64,000 nucleotides of DNA from a virus. How positions within the stretch are numbered: the first letter of the stretch is position 1; each line of letters starts with the position of its first letter. Of this stretch, positions 26,738 through 63,058 are shown piece after piece. The DNA lies in the IMG/VR virus record IMGVR_UViG_3300042731_006881, positions 1-64,000 of that record; one strand, given 5' to 3'. The position numbers and the translations under genes were made by a program. A model generated the notes under the pieces. It was not told the origin of the DNA. It made no database searches and saw only the letters and a list, made by a program, of their open reading frames with translations.

Positions 26738-26765
26738 TTGAAAAGTCGCGCATGGGCGCTATAAT
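26738..26765 (+). promoter_or_regulatory. Near-consensus promoter for tRNA-like RNA
   Basis: TTGAAA (26738-26743), 16-base spacer, TATAAT (26760-26765): five of six and six of six matches to the sigma-70 consensus. The predicted start at about 26772 is exactly the first base of the acceptor-like stem of the RNA element. It is on the plus strand, opposite to the surrounding late genes, and is the best promoter match in the window. Confidence 0.7.
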
Positions 26766-26771
26766 GGGACG

Positions 26772-26850
26772 GCTCTACACATGGAAAACCGCTAGGGGCA
26801 TCGCGGAGTACTCCCGTTCCTACGGCCCGGTTCGATTCCGGGGTAGAGCC
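26772..26850 (+). ncRNA. tRNA-like RNA 1 with own promoter
   Basis: Acceptor-like stem GCTCTAC (26772-26778) pairs perfectly with GTAGAGC (26843-26849), extended by G26771-C26850. It abuts a canonical T arm: CCCGG (26826-26830), loop TTCGATT, CCGGG (26838-26842). Total length near 79 matches a tRNA. The 47 bases between do not fold into normal D and anticodon arms: the best stem there is CCGC/GCGG (26789-26792 with 26803-26806) around a 10-base loop. No CCA is encoded; CTAG follows. Antisense to the late leftward transcript. Likely recognised by tRNA-processing enzymes; not a decoding tRNA as far as can be seen. Confidence 0.6.
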
Positions 26851-44382: not shown

Positions 44383-44723
44383 TGGTAGCCACTCCCGTCG
44401 TCCACGATGACGCGCTCATGACCATGGTGTATTGGTGGTGGATCTGGCCGATGCATCGGTATCCCTGCCTCGGTCAACAGTTGCTCGATCGCGTCGGCTG
44501 CTCCGAGCTCTAGCGAGTTGTCCGTCTTCATGCATGCGCGGTCCAGGAAGAGCGCTCTTGCTACTCGGAGGGACTCTGCCCAGCCCTTCCATGGGCTCAA
44601 GTTCCGAAAATGGTGTACAACTAACCTTTGTGCACCATCGCGACAAGAAGCTCGAGCGACAGCAATTTCAACCTCGTAGACTATCATATCTACGACGGCT
44701 TCTATTCCTCTACTCATCTTCAT
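44379..44723 (-). CDS. Hypothetical protein
   Basis: A 114-residue protein from the ATG at 44723, which overlaps the DnaB stop (TGATG); an ATG two codons later is possible. N-terminal helix (GIEAVVDMIVYEVEIAVAR), Cys near residues 28 and 65, then Pro/His stretch RPDPPPIHHGHE. No family recognised. Confidence 0.55.
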   Translation of the reverse strand: MKMSRGIEAVVDMIVYEVEIAVARASCRDGAQRLVVHHFRNLSPWKGWAESLRVARALFLDRACMKTDNSLELGAADAIEQLLTEAGIPMHRPDPPPIHHGHERVIVDDGSGYQ

Positions 44724-47185
44724 CAATCCAAACTCCTATCAAATCCCCAGTCGTCAACGTCACCCGGGCGCGGCCTGGCGTAGGACGGCTCCTCATCGAT
44801 TTCCTCCAGGTTGTCGAAGCGCGTGTATGCCGACGTGAACCTAGTCCGCACAGTCCCTGTTGGACCATTTCGCTGCTTCGCGATGATGACCTCCGCAACG
44901 CCCATGTCAACGCTATCCATGTTGTAGTATTCATCACGGTAGATGAATATGATAGTGTCGGCGTCCTGCTCAATTGCCCCTGACTCGCGCAAATCGCTCA
45001 GCTGAGGGCGCTTGTCATGTCGAGACTCCACCGAGCGATTCAATTGTGATAGCGCTAGTACAGGAACTTCGAGCTCTTTAGCCAACTGCTTGAGCCCGCG
45101 CGACAACTCGCTGACCTCCTGCTCCCTGCTATGCGCATTCCGCCTTCCGCGCATGAGTTGCAGATAGTCGATCGCGATGAGACCGAGGCGCTTCCCTTTG
45201 TGTCTGAGCTCCGCCTGATACCGGCGCGATTTCGCCCGCACTTCTCCGAGCGATATTGCAGGAGTGTCGTCCACCCGAAGCAGCATGTGCTGGAATGCTC
45301 TAGACTTGTCGGTGATGCGACTCCAATCGTCGGAGTTGAGAGATCCGCTCCTGAGTCGCGACACATCAACCCGCGCTTCCGCAGCAAGGAGACGCAACGC
45401 CAATTGCTCAGTCGGCATCTCGAGCGAGAAGAATGCCGCAGCCAAATCGCTCTGCTCCCAATTTCCAGGGGTTACCTCGCGCGCCCCAGTCATGTTCGCA
45501 GCCACGTTGAGGACGTAGCTCGTATTGTGGGTAACAATGAACCCCTCGGTAACGAACATCCCATCCTCGTTGCTTACCTTGATGCAAGTGCAACTGCTCC
45601 GACCGGTTGGTATCACCCTTGCGATATATCGCTCGCGAAGTCGAAGTTCCCCACCAACCCACTTCTTCAAATTCTTGTCGCTGCTCACGGGCATGATATC
45701 CCCACCGGGGAACGAAAGGTTGATCCTCCAGTACTGTCTCGCGCTGCATAGTTCCCCGTTCTTCCGATACGATCCTTGGTGCTCTGCTGATTTCGCTCTA
45801 CCACCGAGCGACCTAACCAGGAACTCAACGTCATCGCGCAGCTTCTCCGATGTAGTGCAGTATTCAATTCCCTTCCCGTGCGGGTCGCAGACATAACCGT
45901 CTGAATCGCACAAGCCGTTGAGAAGAAGTTGCCGATGCTCCCAGCACCCTAGCAGGTACGCCTCTGGAATGAACTTCTCGTGCGACCTACAACATAGCAG
46001 ACCCAACGCCATCAGGTACCGTTTGATCCCCAACAGTGAAACTCCACCACATCCATCGTTGAACCTGCTAGAACCACCTTCCCAACGCTGTTCGACGCAG
46101 AAGACAACGTCTTTCTCTGGGTTGTGTATTCGCTGCCCACTACCATCCCCGAGCCATACACCAAGCACGTATGGGTCAATCGGAATCTCGGATGGTTCCC
46201 GTTCAGACCACCGCATCTTCGCAGCAAACTGGATGCTATGATTCAATCCTCCATCTGAACGATGAAGTGTTCTGGCAATATCCGCCGTGGTACGCACTGC
46301 TCCACACAAACCAGCGCGCCTATCAGATCGTGTACGAGTCACCCACAGGTGCTCGCCGCACACCTCTACCGAGCAACCGTCTGATGTTTCAACAGAAAAC
46401 GTCTCCTTCGTTCCTTGTGGAAATACACCCTGCACAATAGTTGGTAACCCGTCGGCTCCCATCACCAGATCGCCAACTCGCAGCGACTCTACGCGCTTCC
46501 ATCCACCCGGCGTCAGTACTCGCTGTCCATCCTTCAGGGCCTTCCCCATCCCGGGCCTCCCAGCCACGATGAAGAGCTCTCCAGGGTGCATCCCCGTCGT
46601 GAGTCTGTCCACATCGTCAAAACCAGTTCTAGCTCCGGTCACTCCGCTCGCGCCCGACCTCGATGCGGTTGCCACCGACTCGAGAGCTTCTCCCACCGCT
46701 TCGCCGATATCGACCATTGATCGCGCCGATCCGGCCTGGGCGATCGCCGAGAGTTTCTGCTCCGTTGCGTCGATGTATTCCTGTGGGTCCCCACAATCTC
46801 CGTGGGCCTCCGCCGCTGCCCTCTGGCACACGCTAATGAAGCGCCGCAGACGCGCCTTGTCGCGTACCGTCTCGGCGTGCTGGACTACGTTCGATATCGC
46901 CGGTGTCGCATGGGTGACACGCACGAGGTACTCGGTGCCTCCGACCCGATCGAGCTGGCCAGCGTCCTTCAGCCGCCCGCGGATCGAAACCAGGTCAACC
47001 GCGGATCCGTCGGAGCTGACACCGATGACTGCCTGAAACAGGATCCGGTGAGCGTCCGAGTAGAAATCAGCTGGCTCAACCAGTCCGTCCACGAGGTCTA
47101 GCGATGGGTCCGGGTGCAGGATGCAGGCGCTCAGCACAGCCACCTCGGCCTCAATGTCGTGCGGGGGTAACGAACCGTCGCTCAC
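44723..47185 (-). CDS. dnaB: Replicative DNA helicase DnaB, intein-containing precursor
   Basis: An 820-residue precursor; the mature helicase is about 481 residues. Extein N-part: primase-binding domain (HDIEAEVAVLSACI, then DFYSDAHRILFQA) and RTGFDDVDRLTTGMHPGELFIVAGRPGMGK (Walker A, residues 209-215). An intein occupies 216-554. The C-part resumes TSYVLN, with SLEMPTEQLALRLLA, LIAIDYLQLM (Walker B) and the arginine-finger region FIYRDEYY. The protein unwinds DNA at the phage fork and is loaded by the product of the next upstream gene. Without splicing the Walker A loop is broken, so activity needs the intein to act. Confidence 0.95.
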   Translation of the reverse strand: MSDGSLPPHDIEAEVAVLSACILHPDPSLDLVDGLVEPADFYSDAHRILFQAVIGVSSDGSAVDLVSIRGRLKDAGQLDRVGGTEYLVRVTHATPAISNVVQHAETVRDKARLRRFISVCQRAAAEAHGDCGDPQEYIDATEQKLSAIAQAGSARSMVDIGEAVGEALESVATASRSGASGVTGARTGFDDVDRLTTGMHPGELFIVAGRPGMGKALKDGQRVLTPGGWKRVESLRVGDLVMGADGLPTIVQGVFPQGTKETFSVETSDGCSVEVCGEHLWVTRTRSDRRAGLCGAVRTTADIARTLHRSDGGLNHSIQFAAKMRWSEREPSEIPIDPYVLGVWLGDGSGQRIHNPEKDVVFCVEQRWEGGSSRFNDGCGGVSLLGIKRYLMALGLLCCRSHEKFIPEAYLLGCWEHRQLLLNGLCDSDGYVCDPHGKGIEYCTTSEKLRDDVEFLVRSLGGRAKSAEHQGSYRKNGELCSARQYWRINLSFPGGDIMPVSSDKNLKKWVGGELRLRERYIARVIPTGRSSCTCIKVSNEDGMFVTEGFIVTHNTSYVLNVAANMTGAREVTPGNWEQSDLAAAFFSLEMPTEQLALRLLAAEARVDVSRLRSGSLNSDDWSRITDKSRAFQHMLLRVDDTPAISLGEVRAKSRRYQAELRHKGKRLGLIAIDYLQLMRGRRNAHSREQEVSELSRGLKQLAKELEVPVLALSQLNRSVESRHDKRPQLSDLRESGAIEQDADTIIFIYRDEYYNMDSVDMGVAEVIIAKQRNGPTGTVRTRFTSAYTRFDNLEEIDEEPSYARPRPGDVDDWGFDRSLD
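45524..46540 (-). mobile_element. Intein with LAGLIDADG endonuclease in DnaB Walker A
   Basis: 339 residues (216-554 of the precursor). First residue Ala, not Cys or Ser (ALKDGQRVLTPGGW). The class-3 markers are present: Trp281 in block B (GEHLWVT), Cys534 at F:4 (CIKV) and Thr552 before His553-Asn554. The C-extein starts with Thr. LAGLIDADG-type motifs LGVWLGDGSG (residues 341-350) and LLNGLCDSDGYV (421-432) keep both acidic residues, so homing activity is possible. In class 3, Cys F:4 attacks the N-terminal splice junction. Confidence 0.9.
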
Positions 47186-60360: not shown

Positions 60361-60582
60361 GTGACGGGGACGATACTGACAAGCGCCACATCCGAAGTTG
60401 CAGGCACACACCTGCAACGAGTTCGCAAATCAGTTCGCTCATTTGAGCGCACTCGGGAGCGTAAGTGGCTTGAGATTGCGAAAGCAGAACTAGCCATTCT
60501 ACATCAGATGGCGGCGCGTTCCCCCCAGCTCTACGGGGACGTATTCGGAGAGGCTAGGCGCCTAGTTGAGGAGTGGTCGTGA
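60361..60582 (+). CDS. Small basic early protein
   Basis: A 73-residue basic helical protein from GTG 60361 (ATG 60352 would lie inside the -10 box). Helices are rich in Arg, Lys and Glu. ends EARRLVEEWS. The stop overlaps the next start (GTGA). First gene of the rightward early operon. Unknown role. Confidence 0.55.
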   Translation: MTGTILTSATSEVAGTHLQRVRKSVRSFERTRERKWLEIAKAELAILHQMAARSPQLYGDVFGEARRLVEEWS

Positions 60583-61165: not shown

Positions 61166-61522
61166 ATGAAAAATTGCATCGCCCAGGAAGTTGTGTTTCT
61201 AACCCGTGGCCACGTGGTAGCGAAGCTGCCGCCGGCTAAGAATCCTGCCATGGCCGTGGCCAAGCCATCAACCACCGACTTCGACTCCGTGATGGGAGTC
61301 CCCATTGAGGTGTCGGACCGCGCTCCAACCGAGCGCATTGACAATCTACCAGATGAAGGGGATATCCTAGTGGCTCTCGCAGTCGTGTCGGCGATGCGAG
61401 AGCTTGGAACTCGACACCATGGGAGAGTGTTCTCGCCGAAGCCTCTAGTCTTCGATGAGAACAGAAAACCAATCGGCACGCCTGGCCTCATCAGGCATCG
61501 AGACGTCGAAGAGACTGACTGA
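61166..61522 (+). CDS. Hypothetical protein, rearranged relative of 61698
   Basis: A 118-residue protein behind GGGAGG. It shares three segments with the 74-residue protein at 61698: the start (M-K/R-N-C), VVSAMREL, and KP-I/L-GTPGLIRHR. In the other gene the last two occur in the opposite order. Its coding sequence contains a perfect 9-bp hairpin (GCTCTCGCA/TGCGAGAGC). Unknown function. Confidence 0.6.
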   Translation: MKNCIAQEVVFLTRGHVVAKLPPAKNPAMAVAKPSTTDFDSVMGVPIEVSDRAPTERIDNLPDEGDILVALAVVSAMRELGTRHHGRVFSPKPLVFDENRKPIGTPGLIRHRDVEETD

Positions 61523-61562
61523 AACGAAGCGGCGCAGTACCCGTCCCCTCGAACTGTGTCGC

Positions 61563-61592
61563 GACCCGTCTACAGGCCATCTGTAGCGGGTC
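61563..61592 (+). ncRNA. Hairpin directly before tRNA-like RNA 2
   Basis: GACCCG, bulged T, CTACAG, loop GCCAT, CTGTAG, CGGGTC: twelve perfect pairs around a five-base loop. Four bases (AAAT) separate it from the acceptor-like stem at 61597. It lies in the noncoding gap between two early genes, so is likely part of the same structured RNA. Confidence 0.6.
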
Positions 61593-61596
61593 AAAT

Positions 61597-61654
61597 GCCT
61601 TATCTCTGGGAGCAGGATTGGTCCTACCTGGTCGGTTCGATTCCGACGTAAGGC
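61597..61654 (+). ncRNA. tRNA-like RNA 2, miniature
   Basis: Acceptor-like GCCTTAT (61597-61603) pairs with GTAAGGC (61648-61654; last pair T-G). The T arm GTCGG, TTCGATT, CCGAC (61631-61647) follows directly on the 3' side with no gap, as in tRNA. Only 27 bases lie between, enough for two tiny hairpins (CTC-TGG-GAG, then AGGA-TTGG-TCCT) but not for D plus anticodon arms. Total 58 bases. CTAG follows, as in element 1. Not a decoding tRNA. Confidence 0.65.
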
Positions 61655-61667
61655 CTAGGAGGTGTTG

Positions 61668-61679
61668 GTGAATGCCTAG
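61668..61679 (+). other. Minigene-like start, two codons, stop
   Basis: AGGAGG, five bases, then GTG AAT GCC TAG: a strong ribosome binding site with a three-codon frame, 14 bases after tRNA-like RNA 2. The 16 bases AGGAGGTGTTGGTGAA are repeated exactly at the start of the gene at 61963, so it may be a duplicated gene start. Resembles lambda bar minigenes in form. Confidence 0.4.
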
Positions 61680-61697
61680 CGCATACCCCGAAAACCA

Positions 61698-61922
61698 ATG
61701 AGGAATTGTACGTTGCAGACCCTCCACGAGTGGATGGTTTTAACCCACAAACCGCTCGGTACGCCTGGCCTCATCAGGCATCGGTCCGTCGCAGCGAGCT
61801 CGCTGCGACGGACCGCGGTCGAGTGTATCGACCACCTACAGCCCTTGGAAGAGCGGCTCGCAGCCATCGTTGCGCCAGCAGTCGTGTCGGCGATGCGAGA
61901 GCTACGCCGTGCTCACAGGTGA
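61698..61922 (+). CDS. Hypothetical protein, rearranged relative of 61166
   Basis: A 74-residue protein (starts MRNCTLQ). KPLGTPGLIRHR comes before ECIDHLQPLEERLAAIVAPAVVSAMREL, the reverse of the order in the gene at 61166. The shared parts are also similar at DNA level (for example ACGCCTGGCCTCATCAGGCATCG is in both). Weak ribosome binding site. Perhaps a decayed copy; perhaps functional. Confidence 0.5.
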   Translation: MRNCTLQTLHEWMVLTHKPLGTPGLIRHRSVAASSLRRTAVECIDHLQPLEERLAAIVAPAVVSAMRELRRAHR

Positions 61923-61962
61923 CGGCCTGCTTCGACGCGATTGCCACGCACAGGAGGTGTTG

Positions 61963-62163
61963 GTGAAGCTGATTGTAGAAACAACAGAAGACGAGTACGG
62001 TACAGCGTGGTTCACCGCAACGGTGAACGGAAAGAGCTGGATAAGCGTTGACCTGAACTTCGCGCTGAGTGTTCCTGACCTAATGCGAGAAGCATACGAG
62101 GCTGGGAAGCGCGGAGAGCCGTTTGATATCGAGAAACGAAATGACCCAGAAAGGGTCGATTAG
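61963..62163 (+). CDS. Small early protein
   Basis: A 66-residue protein from GTG 61963 with AGGAGG five bases upstream. Beta strands then helix: KLIVETTEDEYGTAWFTATVNGKSW, then LMREAYEAGKRGEPFD. Looks like a small HicB-like or dsRBD-like alpha/beta fold, but no family can be named. tRNA-like RNA 3 starts three bases after its stop. Confidence 0.65.
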   Translation: MKLIVETTEDEYGTAWFTATVNGKSWISVDLNFALSVPDLMREAYEAGKRGEPFDIEKRNDPERVD

Positions 62164-62166
62164 AAT

Positions 62167-62218
62167 TCCTAACAGCTGGTAGCTGATGGTCCGTTGCGGT
62201 TCGATTCCGCGGTTAGGA
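62167..62218 (+). ncRNA. tRNA-like RNA 3, miniature
   Basis: Acceptor-like TCCTAAC (62167-62173) pairs perfectly with GTTAGGA (62212-62218). T arm TGCGG, TTCGATT, CCGCG (62195-62211; closing pair T-G) joins it directly. The 21 bases between hold a short stem AGCT-GGT-AGCT whose TGGTAG recalls the D loop. Total 52 bases, the smallest of the three. No room for an anticodon arm. Confidence 0.65.
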
Positions 62219-62542: not shown

Positions 62543-63058
62543 ATGATAGTAGCTTTCGACGTGGAGACAAATGGTCTCTTTGGGCAGCCGTTCGCAGTCG
62601 GCGGCGTTGTCTTGGACGAACGAGGGGATACTTTCAGCATATTCAGGTCGCGCTGCCCGATTGTCGGGAACGTTGACCAATGGGTTGGCGCTAACGTTAT
62701 CCCAAAGCTCGAAATGCATGTTTCAGCCACTTCATTGTCCGAAATGCAGGACGCATTTTGGGAGTGGTGGCTGGAGTATAGAAATGATGCAGACGGACGT
62801 ATAGTTGTGGACGTAGGATACCCTGTTGAGACCGGGTTCCTAAGGGCATGTCAGGAAGCGGACCCATCGCGCGAGTGGGAGGGACCGTATCCTCTAATCG
62901 ATCTTGCTGGAGTACTTTTGGCGAGCGGAATAGACCCTCAAATACAGAGGGTACAGCTCATGGAGCGTCTGGATCTGCAGGGTCGATCCTTCAACCAGCA
63001 CAACCCCGTTGATGATGCTATGATAGCAGCGCTTGCCGTATGGAGACTGACGCCATGA
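62543..63058 (+). CDS. DnaQ-like 3'-5' exonuclease
   Basis: A 171-residue DEDDh-type exonuclease: motif I FDVETNGLFG (Asp6, Glu8), probable motif II VVDVGYPVETGF (Asp90), and motif III HNPVDDAMIAAL (His153 with Asp158). A C-terminal WRLTP follows. Related to the proofreading subunit fold; stand-alone phage versions trim DNA or RNA. It follows the hairpin with the CCTCC loop and has a GGATCTG-type weak ribosome site. Confidence 0.85.
   Translation: MIVAFDVETNGLFGQPFAVGGVVLDERGDTFSIFRSRCPIVGNVDQWVGANVIPKLEMHVSATSLSEMQDAFWEWWLEYRNDADGRIVVDVGYPVETGFLRACQEADPSREWEGPYPLIDLAGVLLASGIDPQIQRVQLMERLDLQGRSFNQHNPVDDAMIAALAVWRLTP

Follow-up and report, generated by a model that had tools for sequence, protein, structure and literature searches.

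Miniature tRNA-like elements without an anticodon arm between early genes of an unclassified phage: candidate processing sites belonging to a wider viral class

Two short elements lying between early genes of an unclassified phage, here termed E2 and E3, join a 7-bp acceptor stem directly to a T arm and dispense with the anticodon arm. Sequence comparisons support their assignment to a class of miniature tRNA-like elements present in many viruses, with a common design of 41 to 61 nt made up of an acceptor, a short D-like loop with GG, and a T arm, again with no anticodon arm. We consider it moderately probable that E2 and E3 are tRNA-mimic processing sites, which punctuate phage transcripts or release small RNAs. 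The window referred to throughout is the whole 64,000-nucleotide stretch that was analyzed, and the two elements are laid out in it as follows, with their limits taken from direct reading and a script:

61597–61654, + strand: E2, a 58-nt miniature tRNA-like element
61597–61603 and 61648–61654, + strand: acceptor strands of E2
61604–61612, + strand: D-like hairpin of E2, CTC-TGG-GAG
61631–61647, + strand: T arm of E2, loop TTCGATT
62167–62218, + strand: E3, a 52-nt miniature tRNA-like element
62167–62173 and 62212–62218, + strand: acceptor strands of E3
62174–62184, + strand: D-like hairpin of E3, AGCT-GGT-AGCT
62195–62211, + strand: T arm of E3, loop TTCGATT

Written out in full, E2 reads GCCTTAT CTCTGGGAGCAGGATTGGTCCTACCTG GTCGG TTCGATT CCGAC GTAAGGC and E3 reads TCCTAAC AGCTGGTAGCTGATGGTCCGT TGCGG TTCGATT CCGCG GTTAGGA. 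The acceptor of E2 (GCCTTAT/GTAAGGC) forms six Watson-Crick pairs and one G-U pair, and that of E3 (TCCTAAC/GTTAGGA) forms seven Watson-Crick pairs. A third element, E1, shares with them a T stem of 5 bp, the outermost pair of which is U-G in E3, and all 12 acceptor and T-stem pairs are intact (G-U counted) in E1, E2, and E3 despite their differing sequences. This 7-bp acceptor stacked on a 5-bp T arm with a TTCRANN loop is one of the features of a functional tRNA. Both E2 and E3 carry GG in the loop of the D-like hairpin and a U at position −1 of the acceptor. An anticodon arm with a 7-nt loop is absent from the gap between acceptor and T arm (27 nt in E2 and 21 nt in E3), and no CCA is encoded 3' of E1, E2, or E3. 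An earlier note on this DNA had placed the three elements at these positions, with acceptor-to-T-arm distances of 47, 27, and 21 nt, and both script and reading return exactly these values; the identical loop TTCGATT and the abutment of T arm and acceptor that it described are seen in all three elements, and its view that pairing rather than sequence is conserved is borne out by three different acceptors, each of which forms all seven pairs.

The elements are real and not a product of chance. A scan of both strands of the whole 89,747-base contig for the T-arm motif, defined as a 5-bp stem closed by G-C around TTC(A/G)ANN, returns exactly three such T arms, each abutting a 7-bp acceptor helix (E1 to E3), whereas 300 dinucleotide shuffles of the contig yield on average 0.56 T arms and 0.01 complete elements, and never more than 1 of the latter. 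ARAGORN reports no gene at any of the three positions, Rfam at its gathering threshold yields no match, including to tRNA, and the Rfam covariance models for GOLLD, Y RNA, and tmRNA do not match the elements either. The closest neighbor in the Rfam tRNA clan is tRNA-Sec, at 18–20 bits versus a cut-off of 47. A canonical tRNA or a known Rfam family was rejected on the basis of the ARAGORN result and these Rfam scores. In nearest-neighbor folding, the acceptor of E2 has a mean pair probability of 0.98 and its T stem just 0.07, with the best tRNA-like fold lying 1.7 kcal/mol above the minimum; the corresponding fold of E3 lies 0.6 kcal/mol above the minimum. As modeled by such programs, which do not represent the contact between D loop and T loop, thermodynamic folding gives partial support to a tRNA-like fold, is partly contrary to it, and is not decisive.

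The surroundings of E2 and E3 contain the following features:

61166–61522, + strand: ORF of 118 aa upstream of E2, with no family
61563–61592, + strand: strong stem-loop, GACCCG-CUACAG.../CUGUAG-CGGGUC, with its end 4 nt upstream of E2
61657–61662, + strand: ribosome-binding site AGGAGG, 2 nt past the 3' end of E2, leading to the next small ORFs
61698–61922, + strand: ORF of 74 aa downstream of E2, holding a duplicated segment of the upstream ORF
61870–62163, + strand: ORF of 97 aa, with a weak match to phrog_26564 (unknown function)
62143–62157, + strand (listed on the − strand by the scan): small stem-loop at the ORF end, 9 nt upstream of E3: GACCC-AGAAA-GGGTC

Both elements are located between + strand ORFs, in an intergenic and co-directional setting, and E3 begins 3 nt past the stop codon of the 97-aa ORF. 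The region 61560–61660, which includes the strong stem-loop and E2, has a folding z of −3.1, with none of 200 shuffles equally stable. The AGGAGG that follows E2 is part of a 16-nt repeat, AGGAGGTGTTGGTGAA, a second copy of which at 61952 is not preceded by a miniature element. More generally, positions 61370–61967 of the window are occupied by a small gene with duplicated segments and repeats of 49, 35, and 16 nt. A perfect palindrome of 17+17 nt (CGGTCCGTCGCAGCGAG/CTCGCTGCGACGGACCG), without a T run, lies at 61782–61815 of the window, between E2 and E3.

Related elements were sought in IMG/VR by pattern, with the D loop required to lie unusually near the T loop (TGGTAG followed at 5–24 nt by GGTTCGATTCC). 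Among the matches listed, many have a 7-bp acceptor and no anticodon arm, and T arms outside tRNAs that have an acceptor at 10–34 nt number 23, again among the matches listed, versus 3 when, as a control, the 3' acceptor strand is read 8 bases further on. A second sample, drawn by the T-arm 17-mer alone, holds 117 T arms, with 65 ordinary tRNAs and, in addition, miniature elements. The elements fall into two size classes: those of 54–61 nt retain a normal tRNA D arm (TAGCTCAATGGTAGAGC) and are missing the anticodon arm, and those of 41–49 nt have a shrunken D loop. Four of the 54–61-nt elements score as tRNA in Rfam, at 38–52 bits; the origin from tRNAs by loss of the anticodon arm that the earlier note had suggested can thus be seen in the 54–61-nt elements of other viruses, which keep the D arm. 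The D loop of the E3 type, GGTAGCTGAT, combined with a T arm was rejected as a family signature, with four matches in IMG/VR, at least two of which are ordinary-looking tRNAs. A separate tRNA-like oddity occurs on the − strand of locus L247 (3200–3400), where two T arms are nested in one 8-bp acceptor-like helix (GAATAAGT...ACTTATTC).

Two covariance models, from which all sequences of this phage had been left out, were used to search the complete contig: R1, from nine elements of 54–61 nt, and R2, from eight elements of 45 nt. E3 is the best match of the contig for both (R1, E=3e-4; R2, E=6e-4), and E2 is the second-best place (R1, E=0.012; R2, E=0.009), with the R2 alignment of E2 matching its 3' part to a different 5' partner. 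These searches, with their further copies in other viruses, argue for the placement of E2 and E3 in the miniature class. Acceptor pairing was partly a selection criterion for the R1 and R2 training sets, and acceptor covariation in them is therefore not independent evidence; for this reason, we judged acceptor pairing on copies found by their T loop alone. At least six of the seven acceptor pairs form in 13 of 13 such copies in one virus (G001) and in 4 of 4 in another (G002). Among these copies, the acceptors differ (CACATA/TATGTG, CCATAG/CTATGG, and AGATAG/CTATCT), and the two strands of the D stem change together (GCT/AGC, GTC/GAC, and GTT/AAC).

E1, which the earlier note had grouped with E2 and E3 as a family of three, is located elsewhere in the window, next to a promoter:

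26738–26765, + strand: sigma70-type promoter TTGAAA-16-TATAAT, 11/12 consensus (1 found versus 0.2 expected from shuffles)
26772–26849, + strand: E1, a 78-nt tRNA-like element with a 7-bp acceptor, a T arm, and a long internal arm

The acceptor of E1 (GCTCTAC/GTAGAGC) forms seven Watson-Crick pairs, and the predicted +1 of the promoter, at ~26772, coincides with its first base. R1 and R2 match the T arm of E1 alone (E=0.11). With its 78 nt and its long extra arm, E1 is not miniature and is loosely related to E2 and E3, so that the proposed family is supported for the two elements recovered by the covariance models and weakened for E1. Because E1 runs antisense to the tail-gene operon, which encodes structural genes, and has a promoter of its own, it is not a punctuation element.

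Judged by sequence, the class extends across many viruses and mobile elements related to them. The 31.7-kb genome of G001, which on account of its XPD-like helicase and ERCC4 nuclease genes is probably that of an archaeal virus, contains 13 T-arm motifs, every one on the same strand; almost every copy sits between a stop codon and the next ATG, with a small leader hairpin after it. G002 has three to four copies, most of them followed by a similar leader hairpin and a gene. A 180-kb record (G005) contains 11 copies of both size classes, most with a 3' flank starting with ATAGGAGG or similar, and its gene content as read from translations (sortase-, TnpB-, IscB-, and ParA-like) resembles that of Lactobacillus plasmids. 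At 60447–74614 of this contig (L057), the eleven elements, several of which have a conserved 3' flank, surround TnpB-/IscB-like genes with HEARO/omega RNA; the unit of miniature element plus flank has the look of a repeated, possibly mobile, sequence. Phages of S. pyogenes, S. dysgalactiae, S. agalactiae, S. equi, and other streptococci carry two to four different elements of 39–49 nt in the non-coding gap that separates the ArpU-type late regulator from the terminase genes; 84 phage records have parts of this gap in common. In Streptococcus phage Javan636, this gap (L256, 45–515) contains a GOLLD RNA and a tRNA, the latter read by ARAGORN with a stop anticodon (tta). The late leader of Tuc2009 has no element of the miniature design. 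Of 37 miniature elements in IMG/VR loci, 76% are intergenic and 49% run in the same direction as both neighbors; for random positions, the figures are 26% and 8%. The sheath, the terminase, and the protein encoded at 62543–63058 of the phage under study have no related locus in IMG/VR; against INPHARED, 24 kb of its DNA and the sheath return nothing, and the terminase returns only proteins that are <60% identical.

The features retained in the elements bear on what they may do. U occupies position −1 in 20 of 31 distinct elements, some of them from partly related genomes (background 0.29, p = 5.5e-5), and the D-like segment contains GG in 29 of the 31 versus ~15 expected, in a set drawn mostly from loci that were not selected by D loop (L005 and L057 were first found via the D-loop pattern). 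RNase P and RNase Z read the elbow, which the T loop forms with two guanosines of the D loop, and measure from it to their cut (PMC11693755). The human mascRNA and menRNA, in which the D loop is reduced and the anticodon arm non-standard, are processed by the two enzymes in this manner (PMC11693755). Bacterial RNase P also cuts phage M3 RNA, C4 RNA, T4 gene 32 mRNA, and other mRNAs (PMC11143913).

Transcript cutting appears the most likely role for E2 and E3, because the features they keep are those that RNase P and RNase Z read and because they are placed as gene separators. We infer that both are transcribed and cleaved and that gene expression is affected as a result. They would imitate the half of tRNA that is read by end-processing enzymes, presenting a 12-bp stack of acceptor and T arm from which the anticodon arm has been deleted, with the GG of the D-like loop docking on the T loop to form a tRNA elbow. 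Transcribed within the early polycistronic transcript, they could be cut by host RNase P 5' of the acceptor, after U−1 (61596/61597 and 62166/62167), with RNase Z or exonucleases trimming 3' of the acceptor. The message would then be split into separate mRNAs, such that the piece upstream of E2 ends in the 61563–61592 stem-loop and the piece downstream starts at the ribosome-binding site, and a small tRNA-like RNA would be released, as a by-product or with a second function. For the class as a whole, we put forward tentatively, as a serious possibility, that viruses of bacteria and archaea share anticodon-less mini tRNAs of 41–61 nt, often in multiple copies per genome, which recruit host RNase P and RNase Z to sever viral polycistronic RNA between genes.

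Alternatively, the released small RNA could be the purpose in itself, a decoy acting in trans that would titrate, for example, tRNA-targeting nucleases or tRNA-modifying enzymes while offering no anticodon to cut. This idea draws on the streptococcal phages, in which a single non-coding gap ahead of the late genes contains two to four different elements, and on Javan636, which has a GOLLD RNA and a tRNA in the same gap; GOLLD and ROOL are themselves phage RNAs located near tRNAs, some with tRNAs in the linker (PMC12286853). The separate promoter of E1 points in the same direction. The copies in G001 and those at E2 and E3, however, lie at gene boundaries in the coding direction, which an RNA acting in trans would not need, and acceptor and T-stem sequences vary freely. 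We therefore regard a decoy as an unlikely explanation overall, one that accounts for E1 and for the arrays of streptococcal phages and G005 better than for E2 and E3. Of the two roles raised in the earlier note, RNase P punctuation is the better one; nuclease escape or enzyme titration fits the placement in operon gaps less well and is possible for the streptococcal non-coding arrays. Against punctuation, many of the streptococcal and G005 copies are found in non-coding stretches, a setting no less fitting for a released small RNA.

The tRNA-like fold might also serve uncleaved within the mRNA, as a cis-acting element for stability, translation, or antitermination. Ribosome-binding sites do adjoin the elements, both at E2 and in the 3' flanks of G005, and copies are present in the leader of late operons. 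Such a role would leave unexplained why the T-loop sequence is conserved, why acceptor and T arm abut exactly, and why the GG and U−1 are present, and we consider it improbable. A still lower probability attaches to the view that the elements are decaying tRNA genes or tRNA fragments devoid of function: their derivation from tRNA is plain, some phages have true tRNAs, and tRNA fragments are common in prokaryotic genomes (PMC9897764), but all 12 acceptor and T pairs are intact in E1 to E3 though the sequences differ, and the elements of other viruses form multi-copy, intergenic, co-directional arrays with compensatory changes. Finally, att sites copied from the 3' ends of host tRNA genes, a possibility raised in the earlier note, are very improbable and were rejected for E2 and E3 as regards GTDB hosts: a T arm with a 3' acceptor strand is the usual att core, and some IMG/VR T-arm matches without a 5' acceptor may be such sites, but the 24-base 3' halves of E2 and of E3 occur in 0 of 84,980 GTDB species genomes, all three elements possess the 5' acceptor strand, and three unrelated cores in one phage would be unexpected.

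The proposed processing sites resemble several known systems in part. In mitochondrial polycistronic transcripts, tRNAs lie between genes, and cuts by RNase P and RNase Z release the single mRNAs. The viral elements are likewise tRNA-shaped units between genes; the mitochondrial units, however, are full functional tRNAs, whereas the viral ones lack the anticodon arm and are unable to decode. Bacterial YrlA Y RNA and the tRNA-like domain of tmRNA mimic acceptor and T arm without an anticodon arm. These domains are parts of larger RNAs, unlike the elements described here, which match neither the tmRNA nor the Y RNA models of Rfam.

mascRNA (from MALAT1) and menRNA (from MEN-beta) are similar in having ~60 nt, an acceptor and a T arm, and a reduced D loop with two guanosines (PMC11693755). 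They also lack a conserved anticodon loop, and their processing parts a long RNA from a small tRNA-like RNA (PMC11693755). They differ in belonging to eukaryotic nuclear lncRNAs, in keeping a stem equivalent to that of the anticodon, and in being confined to two loci with no counterpart to the multi-copy viral arrays. The M3 RNA of phi80, the C4 RNA of P1/P7, and the T4 gene 32 RNA are, as the miniature elements putatively are, non-tRNA phage substrates of host RNase P (PMC11143913). M3 RNA, the one of these that was compared (a homolog of lambda oop, 60 nt in NC_021190), has neither a T arm nor a 7-bp acceptor and was rejected as a prototype on its sequence; no element of the miniature design is present in phi80. 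GOLLD and ROOL are comparable as phage non-coding RNA regions near tRNAs, the GOLLD-bearing gap of Javan636 being the gap that holds miniature elements in other streptococcal phages, but GOLLD extends over hundreds of nucleotides and forms nanocages, and the miniature elements have no GOLLD match.

Mimicry of tRNA and RNase P processing of non-tRNA RNAs are already known. We found no earlier description of such viral elements in the open-licence literature that was searched or in Rfam, and the GOLLD/ROOL literature mentions tRNAs in GOLLD linkers and not miniature elements (PMC12286853); there is a reasonable chance that the viral class, taken as a whole, is new. Multi-copy viral tRNA mimics without anticodons would appear to be both undescribed and widespread, most of them escaping ARAGORN and Rfam, and they would account as well for unannotated gaps in many phage genomes. 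If the elements are cut, viruses of bacteria, and probably of archaea, would be using the cell's most conserved RNA-processing machinery as operon scissors, in a viral parallel to the tRNA punctuation of mitochondria that relies on non-coding tRNA mimics.

Several other features of this phage were recorded in passing. Outside the window, contig positions 86569–89300 (L003, 14569–17300) contain a gene for a 652-aa effector similar to Cas12u1/Cas12f (PADLOC E = 2e-76), with ten degenerate direct repeats of ~40 nt, spaced 53–77 nt apart, on its 3' side, which resemble a CRISPR array carried by the phage. Also outside the window, at contig positions 74050–77015 (L002, 15050–18015), are type IV CRISPR-like genes for Csf1, Csf2 (Cas7), and Csf3 (Cas5), with PADLOC E values of 2e-10, 6e-42, and 2e-19, respectively, and a PAPS-reductase/CysH-like gene nearby. 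Type IV genes and a Cas12 on one phage are an unusual pairing. Within the window, an ORF of 820 aa on the − strand (44723–47185) encodes a DnaB-like helicase which, judged by its translation, seems to include an intein.
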